From positions 1 to 64,000 of the forward strand of contig JABXHX010000025.1 in the NCBI GenBank assembly GCA_013373385.1: a stretch of 64,000 nucleotides of DNA. Direction: 5' to 3'. The notes under the pieces were generated by a model, which made no database searches, was not told the origin of the DNA, and saw nothing but the letters and a program-made list of their open reading frames with translations. Shown piece after piece: positions 1-12,110 of this stretch; the stretch's first letter is position 1, and every line of letters starts with the position of its first letter. The position numbers were made by a program, and so were the translations under genes. Origin of the DNA: Flavobacteriaceae bacterium (GTDB lineage Bacteria > Bacteroidota > Bacteroidia > Flavobacteriales > Flavobacteriaceae).

Positions 1-1446
1 CGTGATTGGAATATTTCTCGTCAGTTATGGTGGGGACAGCAAATTCCTGCGTTTTACTTTGGAGACGGAAAAGAAGATTTTGTAGTCGCAGAGAATATTG
101 AAAATGCAGTAAAATTAGCGCAAGAAAAAACAGGAAATACATCATTAACTTCTTCTGACTTAAAACAAGATCCAGATGCGTTAGATACATGGTTTTCTTC
201 TTGGTTATGGCCAATGTCTGTTTTCGACGGAATTCGTAATCCTGAGAATGAAGAAATCAAGTATTATTACCCAACTAACGATTTAGTTACTGGACCAGAT
301 ATTTTATTCTTCTGGGTAGCACGTATGATTATTGCAGGATATGAGTACAAAGATGAGCGTCCGTTTGAAAATGTTTACTTAACAGGACTTGTACGTGATA
401 AGCAACGTAGAAAAATGAGTAAATCTTTAGGGAACTCACCAGATGCGTTAAAATTAATTGAAGATTTTGGTGCTGACGGAGTTCGTGTAGGATTGTTATT
501 AAGTTCTGCAGCTGGTAACGATTTATTATTTGACGAAGATTTATGTCAGCAAGGAAAAGGATTTGCAAATAAAATTTGGAATACCTTCCGTTTAATTAAA
601 GGATGGGAGATTGATGAAAATTTAGCGCAACCAGAAACTGCTAAAATAGGATTAGCTTGGTACGAAGCTAAATTTAATAAAGTATTACTTGAGATTGAAG
701 ATCACTTTAGTAAATATCGCTTATCAGATGCGTTAATGGCTATTTACAAGTTAATTACAGATGATTTTTCATCATGGTTATTAGAAATTGTAAAACCAGG
801 ATACCAACAGCCAATTGATGCAATCACATACAAAGCTGTAATAGAAATATTAGAGAATAACTTAAAAGTATTGCATCCATTTATGCCTTTCTTAACAGAA
901 GAAATTTGGCAACATATTACTGAAAGAACTCCAGAAGAAGCGTTAATTATAGCTAAATACCCAGCAATTGGTGATGTTAATGAAAATTTGATTACTAATT
1001 TTGAGTTTATGACAGATGTGGTTTCGGGAATTAGAACTATCAGAAAAAATAAAAACATTTCATTTAAAGATGCTATTGAATTGTCGGTAGTAAATAGTGA
1101 AAACTTTACAAAAGAGTTTGATGCTGTAATTCAGAAGTTAACGAATGCCTCTGAAGTTTCTTATGTATCAGAAAAAGTTGAAGGAGCTGCATCGTTCCGT
1201 GTAAAATCGAATGAATACTTTGTTCCTATTTCATTAGATACGATTGATGTTGAAGCGGAAATCACCAAATTAAATGCCGAATTAAAGCGTGCAGAAGGTT
1301 TCTTAACAGGAATTCAAAAGAAATTATCAAACGAACGATTTGTAAGCAATGCACCGGAACAAGTAATTACGTTAGAACGTAAAAAAGAATCGGATACTTT
1401 AGCAAAAATTGAAACAATTAAAGCAAGTTTAGCTTCATTAGAATAA
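1..1446 (+). CDS. valS: Valyl-tRNA synthetase, C-terminal part
   Basis: This class I aminoacyl-tRNA synthetase charges tRNA-Val with valine in the cytoplasm. The reading frame is open from base 1, so the gene starts upstream of the window; the ORF-track start at 214 is only an internal Met. The first residues read RDWNISRQLWWGQQIPA, typical of the ValRS catalytic core. The KMSKS signature is present (KMSKSLGNSPDAL), followed by the helical anticodon-binding domain and a C-terminal coiled-coil tRNA arm rich in Glu, Lys and Leu. The three-T-rich hairpin directly after the stop is a good terminator. Identification is secure; the missing N-terminal part, including the HIGH motif, cannot be judged. 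Confidence 0.97.
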   Translation, partial: RDWNISRQLWWGQQIPAFYFGDGKEDFVVAENIENAVKLAQEKTGNTSLTSSDLKQDPDALDTWFSSWLWPMSVFDGIRNPENEEIKYYYPTNDLVTGPDILFFWVARMIIAGYEYKDERPFENVYLTGLVRDKQRRKMSKSLGNSPDALKLIEDFGADGVRVGLLLSSAAGNDLLFDEDLCQQGKGFANKIWNTFRLIKGWEIDENLAQPETAKIGLAWYEAKFNKVLLEIEDHFSKYRLSDALMAIYKLITDDFSSWLLEIVKPGYQQPIDAITYKAVIEILENNLKVLHPFMPFLTEEIWQHITERTPEEALIIAKYPAIGDVNENLITNFEFMTDVVSGIRTIRKNKNISFKDAIELSVVNSENFTKEFDAVIQKLTNASEVSYVSEKVEGAASFRVKSNEYFVPISLDTIDVEAEITKLNAELKRAEGFLTGIQKKLSNERFVSNAPEQVITLERKKESDTLAKIETIKASLASLE

Positions 1447-1455
1447 ACAGAGTTA

Positions 1456-1486
1456 CCCTCATTTTACTTGAAATGAGGGTTTTTTA
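1456..1486 (+). terminator. Rho-independent terminator after valS
   Basis: Perfect 9-bp stem (CCCTCATTT / AAATGAGGG) with a 6-nt loop and a following run of Ts, ten bases after the valS stop codon. The T run is only on the plus side, so it serves valS rather than the convergent dehydrogenase gene. Confidence 0.9.
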
Positions 1487-1494
1487 ATACTGAT

Positions 1495-4422
1495 TTATTC
1501 AATCAATGCCTCTCTTAAAATAGTAATAGGATGTTTAGCAATTCGTTGAGTTCCGTCAAAAATTTGATGCCTACAACTTGTTCCAGCAGCAATTATTTCT
1601 GTGTCTGAAGAACAGCTTCTTACTTTTGGGAATAACGTATCTTCACCAACTTGCATACTCAATTCGTAATGCTCTTTTTCATACCCAAAGCTACCTGCCA
1701 TACCACAACAACCAGTATTTAAAATGGTAACTGAATAATTGGTAGGAATGTTTAAAATATTGAAACTTGCTGCTGTACTCGACAATGCTTTTTGATGACA
1801 GTGTCCGTGAATTTTTAATATTTTACTTTCTTTTGTAAATATATTTACATCAATATTTTCTTTTTGATTTTCGATGTTTAAAAACTCCTCAATAGTAAAA
1901 CAGTTCTCAGAAAGTTCTTTTGCGGCTTTTTTATCGCTTGCAATTCGCAAGTATTCATCTCTAAACGTTAAAATTGCTGAAGGTTCAATTCCGATTAATG
2001 GAGTTTCTTTAGTAATAACATCTTTAAAAATTGCGATATTTTTATTGCAAACCTCTTTGGCTTCTTTTAAAAAACCTTTAGATATAAAGCTACGACCACT
2101 TTCTTTGTGATTGAGCACTACAACTTCGTAACCTAATCTTTCTAATACTGTAATTGCATCTTTACCAATTTCTACATCATAGTAGTTTGTAAATTCATCG
2201 TTAAATAGATATACTTTCTTTAGATCTCTCGACGTTGCTCGAGATGACAAATTAGAGGCAACATATTGTTTTTGAAACCATTTGCTAAATGTTTTTGAAG
2301 CTAATTTTGGAACACTTCTTTGTTGTGCAACACCCATTATTCCTTTAGCCAATGAAGTGTTTAATAATACATTTGTTAGGGCAGGAGTGATGCTTCCTAA
2401 TTTGTTGTACTTTACATTGTTTGCAAACAATTTACTTCTAAAAGAATACCCATTGGTTTCTTGGTATTGGTATAAAAATTCAGCTTTTAAGGCGGCAACA
2501 TCAACATTACTTGGACATTCTGAGGCACATGCTTTACAGCTCAAGCAGAGGTCAAATACCTGCTTTAATTCTTTATGGTTGAATTTATTAGGTTGATCAG
2601 AATTGGTTAAAAATTCTCGTAACGTATTTGCTCTTGCTCTTGTAGTATCTTTTTCATCTCTGGATGCTCTATAACTCGGGCACATTGTTCCACCAGCTGA
2701 AACTGGTTTTCTACAGTCTCCAGAACCGTTACACTTTTCTGCTAATTTTAGAATTCCTTCACTTTCAGAAAAATCTTGAATGGTTTTTATTACTGGTTCT
2801 GTTCTGTCAACCTCATAGCGTAAGCTTTTGTCCATAGGAAAAGCATCAGTAATTTTCCCTCTGTTAAATACATTGTTTGGGTCAAATGCTTTTTTAATAC
2901 GTCTAAATAGTTGATAGTTTTCTTCTCCAATCATCAATGGAATAAATTCAGCACGTACAATTCCATCTCCATGCTCTCCACTAAAAGATCCTTTATATTT
3001 CTTAACTAATTCGGCTGTTTCAGTGGTAATTTTTCTAAACAGTACTACATCTTCAGATTTCTTTAAATTTAATATTGGTCGTAAGTGAATTTCTCCAGCT
3101 CCAGCATGTGCATAATACACAGCTTTTTGCTGGTATGTATCCATAATTTGGGTAAACTCTTCAATAAAGTCAGGTAAATCATTTAAATCAACAGCTGTAT
3201 CTTCTATACAAGCAACAGCTTTATGATCTCCAACCATATTTCCTAACAAACCTAGCCCGGCTTTACGTAGTGCAAATATTTTGTTGATATCGGCTCCATA
3301 TATTTTAGGGTGATGATATCCTAAACCACTTTTTTCTAAATCTACAATTAAGTTATCTGCTAATATTTCTGCTTCTTCTACAGTGTCTGCTGATACTTCT
3401 AACATTAAAATAGCACCTGGATCACCTTGTAAGAAAAATCTATTTTTAGCTTGCTCTCGGTTGTTTTTGGTACAATCTAAAATTATTTTGTCCATTAACT
3501 CACAAGTGTACAACTTGTGTTTCATAGTAATTACAGTGGCTTTTAAACTCTCATTAACACTGTTAAAATGAGAAGTAACCATAATACTTTTACTTGGCTG
3601 TACATCATCTAATTGAACCGTGATTTGTGTAGAAAAAGCTAATGTTCCTTCACTTCCAGATAAGAATTTTGCTACATTTATGGTTGGTTCAGTTCCGCCA
3701 AATAAGTCAGACTTCAGGAATTCATCCACGGCGTAACCGGTGTTACGCCTGTGAATGCTTTCTTTAGGGAATTCCTGTTTAATTTTTTCTTGAGTAGATT
3801 CTGAAATAAGTTCAGAATATATTGATTTGTAGATGTTACCTTCTAAAGAATCTAATTCCATTTTTTGCTTAAACTCCTCTGAAGTGATTTCGGAGAAAGT
3901 AGCCAAACTACCATCACTTAAAATGGTATCAATAGAAAGCACTTTATCTCGTGTTACCCCATAACGAATAGAAGTACTACCGGATGAATTGTTTCCAACC
4001 ATACCACCAATCATACATCGGTTAGAAGTTGAGGTGTTTGGTCCAAAGAATAACCCGTGAGGCTTTAGATAAAGATTCAACTCATCTCTAATAACTCCAG
4101 GTTCAAGAGTAACTGTTTTATTAGTAGTATCTAAAGAGATAATTTTGGTAAAATATTTAGAAACATCTACTACAATTCCATCTCCCACACATTGTCCTGC
4201 AAGAGAAGTTCCTGCTGTTCTCGGAATTAGGGTAGTATTGTTTTTAGAAGTAAAAGCAATTAATTCTTGAATGTCTTTTACATTTTTAGGATAAGCAACT
4301 GCTAATGGAATTTTCCTATATACAGAAGCATCTGTAGCATATATTGTTTTATGTAAATCGTCAAAAAATAACTCTCCTTCTAGAGAATTGTTTAATGCGT
4401 TTAATTGTGTATGGTTAATCAT
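1495..4422 (-). CDS. FAD-linked D-2-hydroxyacid dehydrogenase with Fe-S and CCG domains (YdiJ-type)
   Basis: A 975-residue fusion of a GlcD-like flavoprotein and a GlpC-like iron-sulfur protein. Visible in order: an FAD-binding type 4 domain (about residues 35-240, with PRTAGTSLAGQCVGDG), the FAD-linked oxidase C-terminal domain (about 270-540, with SGEHGDGIVRAEF), a ferredoxin-like segment (about 565-690, with CLSCKACASECP), and a C-terminal CCG domain (KIHGHCHQKAL, NTGCCGMAGSFGYE). This architecture is that of YdiJ and of the Pseudomonas D-2-hydroxyglutarate dehydrogenase; D-lactate is an alternative substrate. It lies 9 bp downstream of an Lrp/AsnC gene, probably in one operon, and opposite a DUF1338 gene, which favours D-2-hydroxyglutarate. 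Oddity: a palindromic repeat is read in frame between the Fe-S and CCG domains (NLSSRATSRDL). Substrate is inferred, architecture is clear. Confidence 0.85.
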   Translation of the reverse strand: MINHTQLNALNNSLEGELFFDDLHKTIYATDASVYRKIPLAVAYPKNVKDIQELIAFTSKNNTTLIPRTAGTSLAGQCVGDGIVVDVSKYFTKIISLDTTNKTVTLEPGVIRDELNLYLKPHGLFFGPNTSTSNRCMIGGMVGNNSSGSTSIRYGVTRDKVLSIDTILSDGSLATFSEITSEEFKQKMELDSLEGNIYKSIYSELISESTQEKIKQEFPKESIHRRNTGYAVDEFLKSDLFGGTEPTINVAKFLSGSEGTLAFSTQITVQLDDVQPSKSIMVTSHFNSVNESLKATVITMKHKLYTCELMDKIILDCTKNNREQAKNRFFLQGDPGAILMLEVSADTVEEAEILADNLIVDLEKSGLGYHHPKIYGADINKIFALRKAGLGLLGNMVGDHKAVACIEDTAVDLNDLPDFIEEFTQIMDTYQQKAVYYAHAGAGEIHLRPILNLKKSEDVVLFRKITTETAELVKKYKGSFSGEHGDGIVRAEFIPLMIGEENYQLFRRIKKAFDPNNVFNRGKITDAFPMDKSLRYEVDRTEPVIKTIQDFSESEGILKLAEKCNGSGDCRKPVSAGGTMCPSYRASRDEKDTTRARANTLREFLTNSDQPNKFNHKELKQVFDLCLSCKACASECPSNVDVAALKAEFLYQYQETNGYSFRSKLFANNVKYNKLGSITPALTNVLLNTSLAKGIMGVAQQRSVPKLASKTFSKWFQKQYVASNLSSRATSRDLKKVYLFNDEFTNYYDVEIGKDAITVLERLGYEVVVLNHKESGRSFISKGFLKEAKEVCNKNIAIFKDVITKETPLIGIEPSAILTFRDEYLRIASDKKAAKELSENCFTIEEFLNIENQKENIDVNIFTKESKILKIHGHCHQKALSSTAASFNILNIPTNYSVTILNTGCCGMAGSFGYEKEHYELSMQVGEDTLFPKVRSCSSDTEIIAAGTSCRHQIFDGTQRIAKHPITILREALIE
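2223..2250. repeat. Palindromic dispersed-repeat-like element inside a coding frame
   Basis: The sequence TCTCGA-CGTTGC-TCGAGA, flanked by GATC and TGACA, forms a hairpin and, on the coding strand, reads TGTCATCTCGAGCAACGTCG and onward to AGAGATCT. From memory this matches a short palindrome scattered between genes in many Bacteroidota genomes. Here it encodes LSSRATSRDL in a linker of the FAD/Fe-S dehydrogenase without breaking the frame. No second copy was seen in the window. Confidence 0.6.
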
Positions 4423-4431
4423 TAGTTAGTG

Positions 4432-4890
4432 CTATTGAATAGGAACATTTTTCTTAAATCCAGCATCAAAACAGATAAATGTATCTGTGCCTGCAACTCC
4501 GTTTATTAAATGAACTTGTTCGTATAAAATTTCTCTTAAATGTTCATTGTTGTGTGCAAATATCAGAATAAATATGGCATAATTTCCAGAAACATAATTG
4601 CATTCAACAACTTCATCAATTTTAGTGAGTGCTTCCATCACAGATTTGGCAAAACGTGCTTCACGTAAACGAATACCTGTATATGATTTGGTGTTAAAAC
4701 CTAGTTTCTTTTCATCAAGAATAAACTCAGCATTTTTAATAACACCACTTTCGGTTAGCTTTTTAATTCGCTGATGTACCAACGAATTAGAAACGTTCAA
4801 TTCTTCTGCTATCTGCGAGTAAGCTTTACGTGCATCTTTACGTAATTGTAACAGGATTTGTTTGTCTATATAATCAAATTGACCTTCCAT
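4432..4890 (-). CDS. Lrp/AsnC-family transcriptional regulator
   Basis: A 152-residue protein of the usual Lrp/AsnC length. The N-terminus is a helix-turn-helix (residues about 4-60: IDKQILLQLRKDARKAYSQI followed by LNVSNSLVHQRIKKL), and the C-terminus is a RAM/Lrp ligand-binding domain ending in a typical AGTDTFICFD-like strand. Such proteins sense amino acids or related metabolites and bind palindromic sites as oligomers. The gene is followed after 9 bp by the FAD/Fe-S dehydrogenase and is divergent from the DUF1338 gene, with a 156-bp AT-rich gap holding a clean inverted repeat. It probably controls itself and both neighbours. The ligand is unknown; an amino acid or keto acid of lysine breakdown is a guess. 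Confidence 0.92.
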   Translation of the reverse strand: MEGQFDYIDKQILLQLRKDARKAYSQIAEELNVSNSLVHQRIKKLTESGVIKNAEFILDEKKLGFNTKSYTGIRLREARFAKSVMEALTKIDEVVECNYVSGNYAIFILIFAHNNEHLREILYEQVHLINGVAGTDTFICFDAGFKKNVPIQ

Positions 4891-4967
4891 ATGGTTGAAA
4901 TAAAATAATTGAGTGTCAAATATTTTTAAATATATAAAATAAAAATCAAATTAATATAAAATTAATT

Positions 4968-4991
4968 TTATAAGTGTAAAATTACTTATAA
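4968..4991. promoter_or_regulatory. Candidate Lrp/AsnC operator palindrome
   Basis: Perfect 8-bp inverted repeat TTATAAGT-N8-ACTTATAA in the divergent gap between the regulator gene and the DUF1338 gene. Its centre is about 67 bp before the DUF1338 start and 89 bp before the regulator start. A second, more AT-rich inverted repeat (AAATTAA-N7-TTAATTT) lies just beside it at 4948-4968. Function as an operator is inferred from position and symmetry. Confidence 0.45.
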
Positions 4992-5018
4992 TGTATGATT
5001 TAATAAAGTAAATCAATT

Positions 5019-5026
5019 TATTTTTG
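5019..5026 (+). promoter_or_regulatory. -7 promoter element upstream of the DUF1338 gene
   Basis: TATTTTTG fits the Bacteroidota -7 consensus TAnnTTTG and ends 20 bp before the start codon. No clear TTG -33 box lies at the usual distance, which would be compatible with a promoter needing an activator. Confidence 0.5.
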
Positions 5027-5046
5027 TAGTGAAAATTTAATTAACA

Positions 5047-5856
5047 ATGACAACAACTGAAATTTTTAACAATTTGTGGAATGAGTATACAGAGAGAACT
5101 CCTTCTGCTCAAAAAATAAAAGATTTGTTTACTAATAAAGGAAACACTGTTTATAATGATCATGTGGCTTTTAGAACTTTTGACGATGCAAGGGTAAATA
5201 TTGATGTATTGGCAAGGCCATTCATAACTGTGGGTTATATTGAATGTGGTGAATATACTTTTGAAGCTAAGAAATTGTATGCAAAGCATTTTGAACATGC
5301 TACTGATAAGAATGCACCAAGAGTATTCATTAGTCAGTTAAAAACTGTTGAGTTTTCTTACGAATTGCAAGCTGCAGTTAAAAACATGATTGATAGCATT
5401 CCTACTGAAGAACTAGAAAGTGATTTGGTTTTTAAAGGGCGTTTATGGAGCCAACCTTCTTATGAAGTGTACAAACAATTACAAGCAGAAACTGAGTATG
5501 CTGCTTGGTTGTATGTAAATGGTTTTTGTGCGAATCATTTTACGGTAGATGTAAACAAGTTAGATACTTTTAATTCTTTGCAAGAGGTAAATGAGTTTTT
5601 AAAGGAAAACGGATTTAAGATGAATACTTCTGGAGGGGAAATTAAAGGGACTCCAGCGCAATTGTTAGAACAATCTAGTGTATTAGCAGATAAAATTCCT
5701 GTTAAATTTGCAGAAGCTACCAAAGAAATAACTTCTTGTTATTACGAGTTTGCTTTTCGTCATGCTATGACAAATGGAGAATTATACTCTGGCTTTATTG
5801 CCGGTTCTGCAGATAAGATTTTTGAAAGTACCGATATGGTACTGCAAGAAAATTAG
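5047..5856 (+). CDS. DUF1338 protein, probable 2-oxoadipate dioxygenase/decarboxylase
   Basis: A 269-residue DUF1338 protein. Characterised members (HglS of Pseudomonas putida and plant FLO7 types) are Fe(II) enzymes that convert 2-oxoadipate plus O2 to D-2-hydroxyglutarate and CO2 in lysine breakdown. The metal ligands I recall for the family can be placed here: H39 in NDHVAFRTF, H164 in ANHFTVDVN and E234 in CYYEFAFRH, with R43 four residues after the first His, the spacing of the substrate-binding Arg. The protein is of the short type rather than the about 460-residue HglS. It faces an Lrp regulator and a YdiJ-type dehydrogenase able to oxidise D-2-hydroxyglutarate. The family is certain; the substrate is inferred from ligands and neighbours. 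Confidence 0.85.
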   Translation: MTTTEIFNNLWNEYTERTPSAQKIKDLFTNKGNTVYNDHVAFRTFDDARVNIDVLARPFITVGYIECGEYTFEAKKLYAKHFEHATDKNAPRVFISQLKTVEFSYELQAAVKNMIDSIPTEELESDLVFKGRLWSQPSYEVYKQLQAETEYAAWLYVNGFCANHFTVDVNKLDTFNSLQEVNEFLKENGFKMNTSGGEIKGTPAQLLEQSSVLADKIPVKFAEATKEITSCYYEFAFRHAMTNGELYSGFIAGSADKIFESTDMVLQEN

Positions 5857-5860
5857 TTTC

Positions 5861-8299
5861 TTAAAAACTAAATTCTTTGCTTAAAGGGAGCTCAATACAA
5901 AATTTAGTTCCCTTTTTTGGTGTACTTTTTACATTTATTTTTCCACCGTGTAAGTCTACAAATTCTTTACAAAGAATTAATCCCAAACCTGTACCAGTTT
6001 CTTTTTGTGTACCAGAGGTTGATATATTTTTGTCTATTTGGAAGATATTTTTTAATTGCATCTCATCCATTCCAATACCGTTATCTTCAATAGAAATTGA
6101 ATATTTTTTTGATTTTTGTTTTATCTTAACTTTTATTTTACCCTGCGTGTTGGTAAATTTAATTGCATTAGAAATTAGGTTTCTAAAAATAGTATCAACC
6201 ATTTGACGGTCAGCGCTTATAATTGCTTTTTCAGGAAGTTTTTCTTGTATGGTTATATTTTTTTGTTTGGCTACATATTCTAATAAATCAATTGTTTTTT
6301 TTACTGATTTAGACAAGTCAAATACTTTAGGGTTGTATTCCATTTTATTGGTTTGTATGCTAGACCATTCAATAAGATTATTTAGTAAGTCCATCGCTTT
6401 TTGTGATGAATTTTCAATAATATTAGCATATTCTTCTATACTCTCGTAATTTTTTTCTTTCACCTGTTTTGCCAAAATATTACTGAATCCTAAAACATTG
6501 TTAAAAGGAGCTCTTAAATCATGACTAATAATCGAGAAAAATTTATCTTTTGTAGCAATAGATTCTTTAAGTTGTTGCTCTGCAATTTTTTGTTTTGTGT
6601 TATCGTAATACAACACATAAACTTTATCCTTTTTATTTATCTTAATAATTGATGTATACGCCTGTACATCTCTTATTTCTCCACTAGCTAGTTGATGTTT
6701 AAACTCATTATAAGAACGTTTGTTGACAACCGTATGATTTAATAAATCTGCAATGGTGTCTTTATCAAGAATATTGATATCGCTAATTTTCATTTTTTTA
6801 AGCTGCTCAAGTGAATAGCCGTAAAAATTTATGGCAGCATGATTGGCTTGTTCTATGCATTGTGTTTCAGGATCTATGATAAGTTTAACCGCATTGGCTT
6901 GCTCAAACATAGCTTTGAATCTATTCTTATTTTCTATAATTGCTAACTCATTTGATTTTTTTTGTGTAACGTCAATAATGATAGAAGCAAGCTTTTTTTC
7001 ACCACTAAAATCAATTGTAGAAGTGAACACACTTACATCTTTAATTGAGCCGTCAGAAAGTTTGTGCTTAAATTCAAAATAATCTCGCTCATTATTTTTA
7101 GCAAGAAGCATTTCTCTTTGGACTTCTTTTTCTGATAGCTGATTGATATCACTTATTTTTTTGTTGCATAGCTCTTCTTTTGTATATCCGTAAAAATTTA
7201 AAGCAGCGTTATTAGCATTTTCAATAAAACCAGTTTCAGGATTAATAATAATTTTAGCAATCTTAGATTGTTCAAATAACAATTTAAAATGTTCTCTACT
7301 TTCTTTGAGTTGCTTTTCACTTTCTAGTTTTTGAGTAATGTCTATAAAAGAGCCAGTAATAGTATCGTCAATCATAGTGAAAGAAATTTCTACTTGTTTT
7401 TTCGTACCATTTTTGGCTGTTAAAGTGTAGGTTCTTTCTTCTACTTCAGATGGGTTTATTTTATATTTTTCAACATCCTCTATAAAAGTAGCATAAGCTT
7501 CTTTTCTATAATCTTCATCTGGAAAAACGTTTAAAAACCACGAATCCCAATCTGGGGTGTCTTGAATTGTGTAACCTAGTAATTCTTCAAATTTTTTATT
7601 CATATAAGAAACTTCAGTTCCTTTAGATGAGCAGATGGCAATAGGTAAATAATTAAAAACTACTTTTTTTTCTTCTTCATTTAAAGTTTTGTGAAATGCC
7701 TCAGCTTGATTAGATTTTTCAATAAACTGCGTGTTTAGCTTTTTAAGTAAAAGGTTTTGTTTTTTTAATGTATGGTTTTGTAAGCTAAGTTTTAAATCAT
7801 TTTCTACTAGGTTTTTTAAATGTAAAATAAGATTCTCATAAGTTTTATTAAGCTTTATTTCTTTACTATCTAAAATGCAAATGGTACCAAAAACCTCATC
7901 GTCTGGCCAATTTATAGGATATCCTAAATAAGAAATCATATTCAAATCACTATCTAAATTGTTATCTTTCCAAAGTTCATCTTTTAATGCATTGGCTACA
8001 TACAATTTTTTTTGGGTTCCGATAACAGTCTCGCAGTACAACCCAAATTTGAGTTGTACTTTTTCGCCAATTAAATACGGATTTTTTGGAGAGTTGTTTT
8101 TCTGAAAAACCTCAATAGTATCTTGGTTTAACTTCATGATTAAACCAGTAGGTACGCTAGTAACTTGAGTAATAGTATCAAGAACTGATTGCCATTTTTT
8201 AGTAGTTTTTTTAGGGATTTTCGGTTTGTTATTAGAGCCAATATTTACCCTAACAGGTATATTAGTCTCTCTAACCATTACAGTAGAAAACGTATTCAT
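5861..8299 (-). CDS. GAF-PAS-PAS-PAS sensor histidine kinase
   Basis: An 812-residue cytoplasmic sensor kinase with no transmembrane segment. In order: a GAF-like domain (about residues 36-170), a coiled stretch, PAS1 (about 212-335), PAS2 (about 340-455), PAS3 (about 465-575), a HisKA dimerisation domain with the phospho-acceptor in FFSIISHDLRAPFNN, and a HATPase domain with N (NLISNAIKFTN), G1 (DNGIGM) and G2 (GTGLGL) boxes. PAS2 and PAS3 are clearly duplicated copies, both with the pattern FYGY and KISDIN. There is no receiver domain and no response-regulator gene nearby, so it is an orphan. The gene is convergent with the DUF1338 gene, 4 bp apart. The signal is unknown. Confidence 0.93.
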   Translation of the reverse strand: MNTFSTVMVRETNIPVRVNIGSNNKPKIPKKTTKKWQSVLDTITQVTSVPTGLIMKLNQDTIEVFQKNNSPKNPYLIGEKVQLKFGLYCETVIGTQKKLYVANALKDELWKDNNLDSDLNMISYLGYPINWPDDEVFGTICILDSKEIKLNKTYENLILHLKNLVENDLKLSLQNHTLKKQNLLLKKLNTQFIEKSNQAEAFHKTLNEEEKKVVFNYLPIAICSSKGTEVSYMNKKFEELLGYTIQDTPDWDSWFLNVFPDEDYRKEAYATFIEDVEKYKINPSEVEERTYTLTAKNGTKKQVEISFTMIDDTITGSFIDITQKLESEKQLKESREHFKLLFEQSKIAKIIINPETGFIENANNAALNFYGYTKEELCNKKISDINQLSEKEVQREMLLAKNNERDYFEFKHKLSDGSIKDVSVFTSTIDFSGEKKLASIIIDVTQKKSNELAIIENKNRFKAMFEQANAVKLIIDPETQCIEQANHAAINFYGYSLEQLKKMKISDINILDKDTIADLLNHTVVNKRSYNEFKHQLASGEIRDVQAYTSIIKINKKDKVYVLYYDNTKQKIAEQQLKESIATKDKFFSIISHDLRAPFNNVLGFSNILAKQVKEKNYESIEEYANIIENSSQKAMDLLNNLIEWSSIQTNKMEYNPKVFDLSKSVKKTIDLLEYVAKQKNITIQEKLPEKAIISADRQMVDTIFRNLISNAIKFTNTQGKIKVKIKQKSKKYSISIEDNGIGMDEMQLKNIFQIDKNISTSGTQKETGTGLGLILCKEFVDLHGGKINVKSTPKKGTKFCIELPLSKEFSF

Positions 8300-8502
8300 A
8301 ATTTGGGGGAATTTGTACTTGTTAATATAATAGATTTACTTGTAAATCAAAATATTAACTTAGTAAAGTTACAGAAAAATTAATTATAAAACAAGTATAA
8401 GGTAATGCTTTATGTTAAAGAAATTAAAAACTCTCGAGTGTGTTTGCTTTACCATATTGGTTTTTATACCTTGTACTTCTATTAATTACCAAACAAATCC
8501 TA

Positions 8503-10998
8503 ATGAAAAAATTAGTCCTACTATTTTTATTTGTTGCTTCTGTAGCAACAGCACAACAAGTAGATTTATCGTATTATTTACCAAAAGGTGTTAGCTATAA
8601 TAGCGCCATACCAACACCAAAATCTGTTATTGGCCATGAGGTTGGTGAGTGGCATATAACACATGATAAGTTGGTAGAATACATGAAGGCTTTAGCAAAA
8701 GTATCCGATAGAATTACATTAGAAAATCGCGGAACTACTTTTGAGGGCAGACCTTTGTTGTTGTTAACGATTACACATCCTAATAATCATCACAAAATAG
8801 AAAACATTAGACAGCGTCATATTGATGCGACCAACAATGCTACTTTAGATGTTTCTAATGACCCCATTGTGGTATACCAAGGATTTTCTATCCATGGCAA
8901 TGAGTCAAGTGGTTCAAATGCAGCATTAGCTGTTGCATATTATTTAGCAGCTGCAGAAGGCGTAGCCATAGATAATTTATTAAAAAATACTGTGATATTA
9001 TTTGACCCTTCATTTAATCCGGATGGATTGCAACGTTTTGCGTATTGGGCAAATACAAATAAGGCGAGTAATATCAATCCTGATCCAAATGATAGAGAAT
9101 ATCATGAGGTTTGGCCTGGAGGAAGAACCAACCACTATTGGTTTGACATGAATAGAGATTGGTTGCCAGTACAATTGCCAGAATCTAGAGCGCGTATTGC
9201 TTCGTTTCATAAATGGTTGCCAAATATTTTAACCGATCATCACGAAATGGGATCAAATTCTTCGTTTTTCTTTCAACCTGGAATTCCGTCTAGAACTAAT
9301 CCGTTAACACCACAGTTAAATCAAGACTTAACCAAAGAAATAGCAGCATATCATGCGAAAGCATTAGATAAAATTGGTTCTTTGTATTATTCTGAAGAGA
9401 GTTTTGATGATTTTTATTACGGAAAAGGATCTACTTTTCCAGATGTAAATGGAAGTATCGGGATTTTATTTGAGCAAGGAAGTTCTCGCGGTCATGCACA
9501 AGAAACAGTAAACGGAATTTTAACATTTCCGTTTACAATAAGAAACCAATTTACAGCAGCATTATCTACGCTAGAGGCTGCCAGTAAAATGCGTGTTAAG
9601 ATTAAAAAGTACCAGCAAAACTTTTATAAAAAAGCAAAAAGAGAAAGCGCAAAAACCAAAGCCATTGTTTTTGGTGATGAAAAAGATGCAGCAAAAACCT
9701 ATCATTTAGCAGAAATTTTAAAGCGACATAACATTAAGTTTAATGAGGTGAAATCTGATTTCACTTCAAAAGGAAAAAGGTATAAAAAAGGATACAGCTA
9801 TGTGATTCCGATGAATCAAAAAAATAGCCGTTTGGTAAAAGCCATGTTTCAGAAAACGACCAAGTTTACAGACAGTTTGTTTTACGATATTTCTGCATGG
9901 ACATTTCCGTTGGCATTTAATTTAGATTACGAAGAAAACATTTCAAATAGCCGAATTGGTAAAGAAGTAACCAATTTAGAAATGCCAAAAGGTTCGGTTG
10001 TTTTTAAAAGCGATTATGGGTATTTAATGCCTTGGAATGAGTATTACAGTCCGAAAGCATTGAATGCAATTCTAGATAAAGGAATTAGAGTAAAAGTAGC
10101 CATGAAGCAATTTAAGAATGGTGGTAGAGCTTATGATTATGGGACCATTTTTATTCCAGTTCAAAATCAAAAATTAAATAGCAGAGATTTGTTTGTATTT
10201 TTAGAAAAAGTAGCCAAGAAAAGTCACTTGCAAATGTATGGAACTAGTACAGGATTAAATGACGGAATTGATTTAGGGTCTAATAATTTTAGAAATGTGA
10301 CACCTAAAAAAGTAGCAGTTTTGGTAGGTAGAGGTTTTTCTAGTTACGATGCCGGAGAAATTTGGCATTTATTTGATACTAGGTACAATATGAAGATTAC
10401 AAAACTAGATACTGATTATGCAAGTAGAGTAGATTTAAGTAAATACACAACCATTATTGCAAATGGTAGCACAAGTGATAAAGCTTTAGAAAACAAATTA
10501 AAAACTTGGGTAAGAAATGGAGGTACTTTAATTGGATTCCGTCATACAACTAGATGGTTATCTTCTAGAAAGTTCATGAACTTAGAGTTTCAATCAGCTA
10601 AAAGTCCAACAGCACCAGTATCTTTTGAAAATAAAAATTTGCAATCTGGTGCACAAGTAATTGGCGGAGCCATTTTTAATACCAAGTTAGATTTATCTCA
10701 TCCTATCAATTTTGGATATAAGAATAACACTTTACCAATGTTTAGAAACACAACTATTTTTGTAAAACCTAACAAACGTAGTTATAACAACCCGATACAG
10801 TATACCAATAGTCCGTTATTAGCGGGTTATATTTCTAAACCTAATTTAGAACAGTTAAAGAATACAGTGCCTTTTCAGATTCAACGAAACGGTAGAGGTA
10901 GAGTGGTGGCTTTTACAGACAACACCAATTTTAGAGCATTTTGGTACGGAACAAACAAGTTGTTAATGAATGCAATTTTCTTTAGTAATTCTATGTAA
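8503..10998 (+). CDS. Secreted M14-family zinc carboxypeptidase
   Basis: An 831-residue exported metallopeptidase. I choose the Met at 8503 because it begins a clean signal peptide (MKKLVLLFLFVASVATAQQ); the ORF-track start at 8440 adds 21 unlikely residues. The M14 domain occupies about residues 40-380: zinc ligands in SIHGNESSG, the substrate-binding FNPDGLQRF and WFDMNRDW segments, DHHEMGSNSS, and the catalytic Glu in ILFEQGSSRG. The remaining 450 residues form a C-terminal region resembling a GATase1-like fold (VAVLVGRGFSSYDAGEIW), usual in large Bacteroidota members of this family. It likely degrades peptides in the periplasm or outside the cell for nutrition. A strong hairpin terminator follows. 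Substrate is not deducible. Confidence 0.92.
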   Translation: MKKLVLLFLFVASVATAQQVDLSYYLPKGVSYNSAIPTPKSVIGHEVGEWHITHDKLVEYMKALAKVSDRITLENRGTTFEGRPLLLLTITHPNNHHKIENIRQRHIDATNNATLDVSNDPIVVYQGFSIHGNESSGSNAALAVAYYLAAAEGVAIDNLLKNTVILFDPSFNPDGLQRFAYWANTNKASNINPDPNDREYHEVWPGGRTNHYWFDMNRDWLPVQLPESRARIASFHKWLPNILTDHHEMGSNSSFFFQPGIPSRTNPLTPQLNQDLTKEIAAYHAKALDKIGSLYYSEESFDDFYYGKGSTFPDVNGSIGILFEQGSSRGHAQETVNGILTFPFTIRNQFTAALSTLEAASKMRVKIKKYQQNFYKKAKRESAKTKAIVFGDEKDAAKTYHLAEILKRHNIKFNEVKSDFTSKGKRYKKGYSYVIPMNQKNSRLVKAMFQKTTKFTDSLFYDISAWTFPLAFNLDYEENISNSRIGKEVTNLEMPKGSVVFKSDYGYLMPWNEYYSPKALNAILDKGIRVKVAMKQFKNGGRAYDYGTIFIPVQNQKLNSRDLFVFLEKVAKKSHLQMYGTSTGLNDGIDLGSNNFRNVTPKKVAVLVGRGFSSYDAGEIWHLFDTRYNMKITKLDTDYASRVDLSKYTTIIANGSTSDKALENKLKTWVRNGGTLIGFRHTTRWLSSRKFMNLEFQSAKSPTAPVSFENKNLQSGAQVIGGAIFNTKLDLSHPINFGYKNNTLPMFRNTTIFVKPNKRSYNNPIQYTNSPLLAGYISKPNLEQLKNTVPFQIQRNGRGRVVAFTDNTNFRAFWYGTNKLLMNAIFFSNSM

Positions 10999-11018
10999 AA
11001 CTTAGTGAGAATAAATTT

Positions 11019-11048
11019 AAAAAACTCTTGATTTTTCAAGAGTTTTTT
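11019..11048 (+). terminator. Terminator after the M14 carboxypeptidase
   Basis: AAAACTCTTGA / TCAAGAGTTTT stem with a TTTT loop and a T run, 20 bp after the stop codon. Confidence 0.88.
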
Positions 11049-11097
11049 TGTAACAAACTTTACAGATACTCGTCATATAAACGAATATAAAATAACT

Positions 11098-11256
11098 ATG
11101 AGTTTATTAAGAGTATTATTAGCCATCTTTTTTCCACCGCTTTCTGTTATAGATAAAGGGTGTGGTTCTTTTGTAATTATCTTTTTGCTGACACTTTGTG
11201 GATGGATTCCTGGTGTTATTGGAGCATTAGTGATTTTAAATAATCCAAAAAATTAG
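11098..11256 (+). CDS. YqaE/Pmp3-family small membrane protein
   Basis: A 52-residue protein too short for the ORF track: it begins MSLLRVLLAIFFPPLSVIDK and ends LVILNNPKN. The pattern LAIFFPPLSV, a central Gly/Cys, then LCGWIPGVIGAL is the hallmark of the Pmp3/YqaE (UPF0057) proteolipids, which are two-helix inner-membrane proteins linked to membrane potential and salt or stress tolerance. The start is the only ATG in frame and lies 50 bp after the preceding terminator, so it is a separate transcript. Length (50-55 residues) matches the family exactly. Precise role in this organism is unknown. Confidence 0.9.
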   Translation: MSLLRVLLAIFFPPLSVIDKGCGSFVIIFLLTLCGWIPGVIGALVILNNPKN

Positions 11257-11321
11257 ATAATTGGATAAATAGAATGATTAGATTTTAAGATTGCTTTTTA
11301 CTAACACCTAATTACTAATTG

Positions 11322-11660
11322 CTATTTCACCTGCTCGCCATTTTTTATTTGCTTAGAAGCCTGCAGTAATACCACATTGCCTTCCTCATTATAAATACCT
11401 AGCACTAGGCATTCGCTGCTAAAGTTAGCAATTTGTCTTGGTTTAAAGTTTACAATTGAAGTTACTTGGCGATTCAATAAATCTTCTTTGGTATATAAAT
11501 CTGTAATTTGTGCACTCGACTTTTTAATACCTAAATCACCAAAATCTATATGTAACTGATAGGCAGGTTTTCTTGCTTTAGGAAAATCATTGACTTCTAT
11601 AATGGTTCCTACTCTAATATCAACTTTTAAAAAGTCTTCAAATAAAATTTCTTTAACCAT
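11322..11660 (-). CDS. csaA: CsaA-type tRNA-binding domain protein
   Basis: A 112-residue single-domain protein with the tRNA-binding OB fold found at the C-terminus of bacterial methionyl-tRNA synthetases. Diagnostic stretches are DFLKVDIRVGTI near the start, KKSSAQIT in the middle and RQIANFSSECLVLG before the end. CsaA of Bacillus subtilis is a homodimer described as an export-related chaperone that binds tRNA-like ligands. Length is normal for the family. It is the last gene of a compact minus-strand run of four (TPR lipoprotein, DinB-like, NTF2-like, CsaA), with only 3 bp separating it from the gene before. Confidence in family is high; cellular role is modestly supported. Confidence 0.92.
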   Translation of the reverse strand: MVKEILFEDFLKVDIRVGTIIEVNDFPKARKPAYQLHIDFGDLGIKKSSAQITDLYTKEDLLNRQVTSIVNFKPRQIANFSSECLVLGIYNEEGNVVLLQASKQIKNGEQVK

Positions 11661-11663
11661 AGC

Positions 11664-12110
11664 TTATTGTTTTACTGGATAAGGTCTAAATGTATATGAT
11701 TTCTGAACAATTTTCCAGCTTCCTTTGTATTTTAATAATAAGAAATAATCAGTATACATTCTACCATAATTGGGCATTAAAATTTCTACTTTGGCAGAAG
11801 CTGCATTGTTTTCGTAATCTATGGCAATAATTCTACCAATTCGATTCGATTTTTTACCTTTTTTTATATTAGCAATATACCGTTTTCCAGAACGAGCCCA
11901 AGCGCTATCTCCACGTACGGTATATAATTTAAAATCTGGGTGAAAAGCTCTTTTTAAGCGATCTGGTTGTCCATTAGCAGTGCCTTCAATATAATCCATC
12001 AAAGTGGTTCTTATCATTTCTATTTCTGATTTTTTATTTTTCTCTTGAGCGGTTATTGATAGCGAAATAATTAAGCAAATCAATGTAGCTAGGTTTTTGA
12101 ATGATTTCAT
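11664..12110 (-). CDS. Exported NTF2-like / lumazine-binding-like protein
   Basis: A 148-residue protein with an N-terminal signal peptide (MKSFKNLATLICLIISLSITAQ) and an SnoaL/NTF2-like cone fold: the helix IRTTLMDYIEGTANGQPDRL, then AFHPDFKLYTV, and C-terminal strands ending YFLLLKYKGSWKIVQKSY. It resembles the putative lumazine-binding (DUF4440-like) proteins common in Flavobacteriia, which are small periplasmic proteins without an assigned reaction. It is separated from the DinB-like gene by 1 bp and from csaA by 3 bp, so it is surely co-transcribed. Ligand or enzymatic activity cannot be inferred. Confidence 0.8.
   Translation of the reverse strand: MKSFKNLATLICLIISLSITAQEKNKKSEIEMIRTTLMDYIEGTANGQPDRLKRAFHPDFKLYTVRGDSAWARSGKRYIANIKKGKKSNRIGRIIAIDYENNAASAKVEILMPNYGRMYTDYFLLLKYKGSWKIVQKSYTFRPYPVKQ

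Follow-up and report, generated by a model that had tools for sequence, protein, structure and literature searches.

A DUF1338 gene beside Lrp/AsnC-family regulator and YdiJ-like dehydrogenase genes in a Flavobacteriaceae bacterium: probable lower half of a plant-type lysine catabolic route

A 64,000-nt stretch of DNA from a marine Flavobacteriaceae bacterium (contig JABXHX010000025.1 of assembly GCA_013373385.1, positions 1 to 64,000; hereafter the window) contains a gene coding for a DUF1338 (HGLS) protein, divergent from the gene for an Lrp/AsnC-family regulator (AsnC), which is followed by that of a YdiJ-like dehydrogenase. This arrangement raises the question of whether two neighbouring gene products could convert 2-oxoadipate to D-2-hydroxyglutarate (D-2HG) and this to 2-oxoglutarate, as the original prediction for this DNA proposed, with the regulator tuned to the same route. 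The layout it described was confirmed: all three open reading frames (ORFs) are intact, the AsnC gene comes first and lies 9 bp from the dehydrogenase gene, and 156 bp separate it from DUF1338 (Table 1). Each enzyme type is already known; the locus brings them together in a conserved new arrangement. Our preferred reading, to which we give a probability of roughly 0.78, is that it constitutes the lower half of the plant-type (saccharopine) lysine catabolic route. This is supported by the residues of the DUF1338 protein and its fold, which is that of solved synthases, by recurrent linkage in several layouts, by saccharopine-pathway neighbours in relatives, and by upper-pathway genes elsewhere in this genome.

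Table 1. Positions of the genes and the intergenic region of the locus, numbered along the window.
Feature	Positions	Strand	Description
DUF1338/HGLS gene	5047..5856	+	Intact ORF, 269 aa, plant FLO7-like short form
Lrp/AsnC-family regulator gene	4432..4890	-	Intact ORF, 152 aa
YdiJ-like FAD/Fe-S/CCG dehydrogenase gene	1495..4422	-	Intact ORF, 975 aa
Divergent intergenic region AsnC/DUF1338	4891..5046	.	Candidate shared operator and promoter

The DUF1338 protein matched the Pfam HGLS profile (PF07063) with 111.3 bits, the cut-off being 25. The predicted metal ligands H39, H164 and E234, and the substrate arginine R43, had been placed correctly; they align with the conserved motifs DH.AFRTF, NH.T and EFA of 3LHO and FLO7, and were invariant across 12 diverse DUF1338 homologues. 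The nearest solved structures identified by phmmer were 3LHO (1e-81) and rice FLO7 (6W1K; 4e-37). An AlphaFold model (pLDDT 91.6) gave TM scores of 0.89 with 3LHO and 0.92, at 34% identity, with 6W1K (FLO7 with bound 2-oxoadipate), the latter indicating the fold of solved hydroxyglutarate synthases; it superposed weakly on the long HglS of Pseudomonas putida (16% identity in the structural alignment). FLO7, Arabidopsis AT1G07040, YdcJ and HglS all make 2-hydroxyglutarate from 2-oxoadipate, which is the sole substrate acted on by HglS; the conserved arginine is required, and the authors of that work predict 2-oxoadipate activity for every DUF1338 protein containing it (PMC7286885). The window protein is thus well predicted to be an Fe(II)-dependent 2-oxoadipate dioxygenase/decarboxylase (D-2-hydroxyglutarate synthase). 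For the same reason, the earlier claim that the locus newly assigns the short DUF1338 form does not hold, this form having been assigned via FLO7 and AT1G07040 (PMC7286885). That the protein acts on another 2-oxo acid, the locus serving a different amino acid, would be in line with the 28 of 117 distinct loci in which DUF1338 stands alone within 5 kb, and with the lipoate ligase gene often found next to it in Bacteroidales (23 loci), which lysine does not explain. Set against the specificity and arginine requirement of HglS (PMC7286885), the identity and TM score with FLO7, and the saccharopine and piperideine-6-carboxylate (P6C) dehydrogenase genes that neighbour DUF1338 in relatives, this is very unlikely.

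In the dehydrogenase, the Pfam domains FAD_binding_4, FAD-oxidase_C and Fer4_17/Fer4_8 were above cut-off, and the domain order (FAD_binding_4, FAD-oxidase_C, Fe-S, CCG) is that of YdiJ. The sequence includes a Zn-type H439...H446 motif, SGEHGDG, the Fe-S motif CLSCKACASECP at residues 626-637, and CCG-type motifs near residues 873 and 902. It was colinear with Escherichia coli YdiJ over the whole length, 294 of the 931 aligned residues being identical (32%), and is a predicted D-2HG dehydrogenase. A quick tree, with Shimodaira-Hasegawa-like approximate likelihood ratio test (SH-aLRT) support only, placed it in a Bacteroidota branch apart from that of E. coli YdiJ. An Arg/Lys substrate-binding motif that the window enzyme has in common with E. 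coli YdiJ was considered as a discriminator between D-2HG and D-lactate enzymes and set aside as apparently not diagnostic.

No account of bacterial DUF1338-YdiJ linkage was found in the literature searched. Neighbouring genes were inspected in 117 distinct DUF1338 loci, collected by similarity to the window protein, the relatives of which are therefore over-represented; 85 of these loci had flanks of 5 kb or more in both directions. A dehydrogenase gene was present within 5 kb in 51 of the 85; about 0.4 would be expected from one dehydrogenase copy per 3 Mb, although the loci are related to each other and the binomial figure is a guide only. A dehydrogenase, ALDH7 or saccharopine dehydrogenase (SDH) gene neighboured DUF1338 in 63 of the 85, in at least six layouts. 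By parsimony, the linkage state changed at least 19 times on the DUF1338 tree, so the pairing does not derive from one inherited event only. The patchy presence of DUF1338 in the genus might suggest chance adjacency in one genome, but the linkage counts and the 19 changes refute this explanation, which is hardly credible. The commonest layout with a partner gene was that of the window, the YdiJ-like and AsnC genes lying on one strand and DUF1338 on the other (28 of the 117 distinct loci). Others had the genes for lipoate-protein ligase A (LplA), DUF1338 and YdiJ in the same direction (17 loci), DUF1338 followed by YdiJ (10 loci), AsnC divergent from DUF1338 and ALDH7 (five loci; Flavobacterium), or SDH, ALDH7, DUF1338, SerC and YdiJ in this order and direction (two betaproteobacterial metagenome-assembled genomes (MAGs), L152 and L187). 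In L152 and L187, the dehydrogenase at the equivalent operon position groups with E. coli YdiJ (100% SH-aLRT; 1000-1028 bits on the YdiJ model); DUF1338 is therefore paired with two separate dehydrogenase branches. The recurrence of the pairing in many bacteria supports the predicted functions.

Two of these neighbours deserve mention in their own right. In the betaproteobacterial SDH-ALDH7-DUF1338 operons, a SerC-type phosphoserine aminotransferase gene follows DUF1338 (L148:10598-11563, L152:10846-11919 and L187:10841-11917) and YdiJ comes next on the contigs that extend far enough; SerC could provide a link to D-2HG made by SerA, or be the missing aminotransferase. In the 23 Bacteroidales-type MAG loci mentioned above (e.g. 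L127, L130, L133, L134 and L139), the lipoate-protein ligase A gene lies directly upstream of DUF1338 on the same strand, and a YdiJ-like gene is often next.

The lack of a lysine aminotransferase gene in the window, noted earlier, is no obstacle, since the saccharopine route is encoded outside it. The same genome contains genes for a lysine-ketoglutarate reductase (LKR)-type protein (G000 C70), with the LKR of human AASS as its nearest PDB relative, for an SDH (G000 C53; nearest to yeast SDH and human AASS), and for an ALDH7-type P6C/aminoadipate-semialdehyde dehydrogenase, the latter in two contigs (C12 and C77). With these three activities of saccharopine-type lysine catabolism encoded, 2-oxoadipate can plausibly form. 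The two P6C dehydrogenase halves (G000:C12:51734-52537 and G000:C77:83224-84006) overlap at query residues 253-268, and the split is most likely an assembly break. In a few congeners, a second DUF1338 type (about 300 aa, 38-39% identical) lies beside SDH (G218, L281:7642-10081; G351, L081); at the matching site, the window genome has SDH without DUF1338.

The regulator showed the domains HTH_24 (an AsnC-type helix-turn-helix) and AsnC_trans_reg above Pfam cut-offs, as expected for the Lrp/AsnC family. Its ligand is not assigned by the locus as had been hoped: it scored 121 bits on the AsnC equivalog (cut-off 227) and 75 on that of lysine-responsive LysM (cut-off 180). In 41 of 121 loci, an AsnC gene was the immediate neighbour of DUF1338, on the other strand. 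Among 43 congeners, 16 had it, in 15 beside the dehydrogenase gene and in one (G264) beside DUF1338 alone, and it was commoner with DUF1338 (9/13) than without (7/30; Fisher p 0.007, uncorrected for descent). The element TGTCAAA/TTTGACA occurred in 17 of 39 divergent intergenic regions versus 2.0 expected from dinucleotide shuffles, an enrichment partly due to descent, as these are related sequences. Their alignment revealed a conserved GTGTCAAAT at about positions 4912-4921 of the window, plus further elements resembling TGTCAAA, and DUF1338 is preceded by TAtTTTTG, a -7 box of the Bacteroidota type. AsnC likely exerts local control over both the DUF1338 and the dehydrogenase genes. No Rfam elements were found in positions 1-12000 of the window.

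Several observations weigh against assigning the locus to lysine catabolism. DUF1338 is patchily distributed (40/168 congeners, 47/400 genomes in the family, 11/198 in the phylum), being absent from 128 of the 168 congeners. The linkage predicted for relatives, borne out in the loci overall, fails in 3 of the 13 carrier congeners checked (G264, G357 and G224). The AsnC gene is kept in seven congeners without DUF1338, and no convincing copy of its candidate element was seen upstream of the LKR, SDH or ALDH7 genes of this genome. No aminoadipate aminotransferase was identified, though no diagnostic query for one was used. The genome also encodes glutaryl-CoA dehydrogenase, an alternative outlet; the DUF1338 route is therefore not the sole exit from 2-oxoadipate, and the cell appears to have two. 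An anti-correlation between DUF1338 and glutaryl-CoA dehydrogenase was sought in 80 relatives and not found (30/40 versus 34/40, p 0.40). Nine small genomes (1.6-2.7 Mb; G365, G395, G403, G460, G494, G571, G594, G655 and G678) with the longer DUF1338 type had no glutaryl-CoA dehydrogenase match, and in these DUF1338 may be the only 2-oxoadipate outlet.

The remaining objections concern the dehydrogenase. It reached 613 bits on the YdiJ equivalog NF049975, short of the cut-off of 1350 (E. coli YdiJ scores 1728), and is therefore called YdiJ-like, with D-2HG as the inferred substrate. The preference for D-2HG over D-lactate required by the original prediction could not be read from the sequence, which is compatible with D-lactate too. 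The missed cut-off, and nearest PDB relatives that include glycolate and D-lactate enzymes, could point to a fused Dld-II-type D-lactate dehydrogenase (such fused enzymes have the same domain layout), its adjacency to DUF1338 being unrelated to D-2HG. Given that it aligns colinearly with E. coli YdiJ from end to end (32% identity), and that such dehydrogenase genes recur beside one whose product is predicted to make D-2HG, in one case with a YdiJ-branch enzyme at the equivalent place in the operon, this is quite unlikely. The dehydrogenase gene also belongs to the core of the genus, having been found in all 43 congeners tested whether or not they carry the accessory DUF1338, and in several of those lacking DUF1338 the flanking ValS or M14 genes still adjoin it; the enzyme is therefore not dedicated to the 2-oxoadipate route. 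It might instead be a housekeeping recycler of D-2HG for SerA (serine synthesis), with DUF1338 merely benefiting from adjacency and AsnC answering another amino acid. E. coli YdiJ has been tied to SerA (PMC9504171), SerC follows DUF1338 in L148, L152 and L187, with YdiJ on its far side in the last two, and AsnC remains beside the dehydrogenase gene in congeners without DUF1338. Operons with DUF1338, however, recur in unrelated lineages, AsnC is commoner where DUF1338 is present, by the uncorrected comparison given above, and it accompanies DUF1338 with no dehydrogenase gene nearby in G264, Flavobacterium and Reichenbachiella. We consider this alternative possible, if on balance rather unlikely. 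The observations fit best a dehydrogenase with a core role, e.g. the clearing of SerA-made D-2HG, to which DUF1338 is an accessory supplier.

In the lysine route that we favour, LKR, SDH, P6C/aminoadipate-semialdehyde dehydrogenase and a presumed aminotransferase, all encoded elsewhere, would provide 2-oxoadipate. The DUF1338 protein would bind it at an Fe(II) held by H39, H164 and E234, R43 gripping the distal carboxylate, and with O2 would decarboxylate and hydroxylate it to D-2HG. The adjacent flavo-iron-sulphur dehydrogenase would oxidize D-2HG to 2-oxoglutarate, with its Fe-S/CCG portion relaying electrons towards the respiratory chain. It probably also clears the D-2HG by-product of SerA, which would explain why no congener checked lacks it. 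The probable binding site of the Lrp/AsnC protein is the intergenic region between the divergent genes, from where it would tune transcription on either side to lysine or to an intermediate of the pathway. The proposed two-step module is thus largely supported by fold, residues, linkage and upper pathway; its dedicated dehydrogenase is not. A bolder proposal, which we regard as doubtful, is that some bacteria hold the complete plant lysine pathway in one cluster (DUF1338, dehydrogenase, and saccharopine and P6C dehydrogenases) under a dedicated AsnC-type regulator sensing lysine or 2-aminoadipate, retained alongside the glutaryl-CoA route as an exit that depends on O2 and not on CoA, SerC doubling as aminoadipate aminotransferase in the betaproteobacterial version. 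If the lysine reading is correct, gene context would back 2-oxoadipate as the compound on which short-form DUF1338 proteins act in organisms other than plants, and would point to a second, Bacteroidota-type branch of D-2HG dehydrogenases. The plant route would also have a bacterial counterpart that is tractable and in which the regulator ligand is directly testable.

Among known systems, E. coli AsnC (2CG4) is the best PDB match of the regulator and has the same two-domain layout, although the window regulator falls below the AsnC equivalog cut-off. The YdiJ of E. coli and Pantoea is, like the window dehydrogenase, a colinear FAD, Fe-S and CCG fusion, and shares with it the motifs GLLGN..G..K..EDT, H..AG..H.RP and GEHG.G; the two differ in being only 32% identical, in branch, and in score (613 bits against a cut-off of 1350). 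The closest solved structure to the DUF1338 protein is that of a putative hydrolase of Shewanella frigidimarina (3LHO), an uncharacterised protein of equal length and 48% identity. P. putida HglS (6W1G, 6W1H) has the same family, predicted reaction and residues, but is longer, 16% identical, and serves the D-lysine route. Rice FLO7 and Arabidopsis AT1G07040 (6W1K) share with the window protein the short DUF1338 fold (TM 0.92), the His-His-Glu metal site and the substrate arginine four residues past the first histidine, and, like the window genome, have saccharopine-type lysine catabolism upstream; the window protein differs in being bacterial, in its 34% identity to FLO7, and in that its gene adjoins those of a predicted follow-on dehydrogenase and a regulator.

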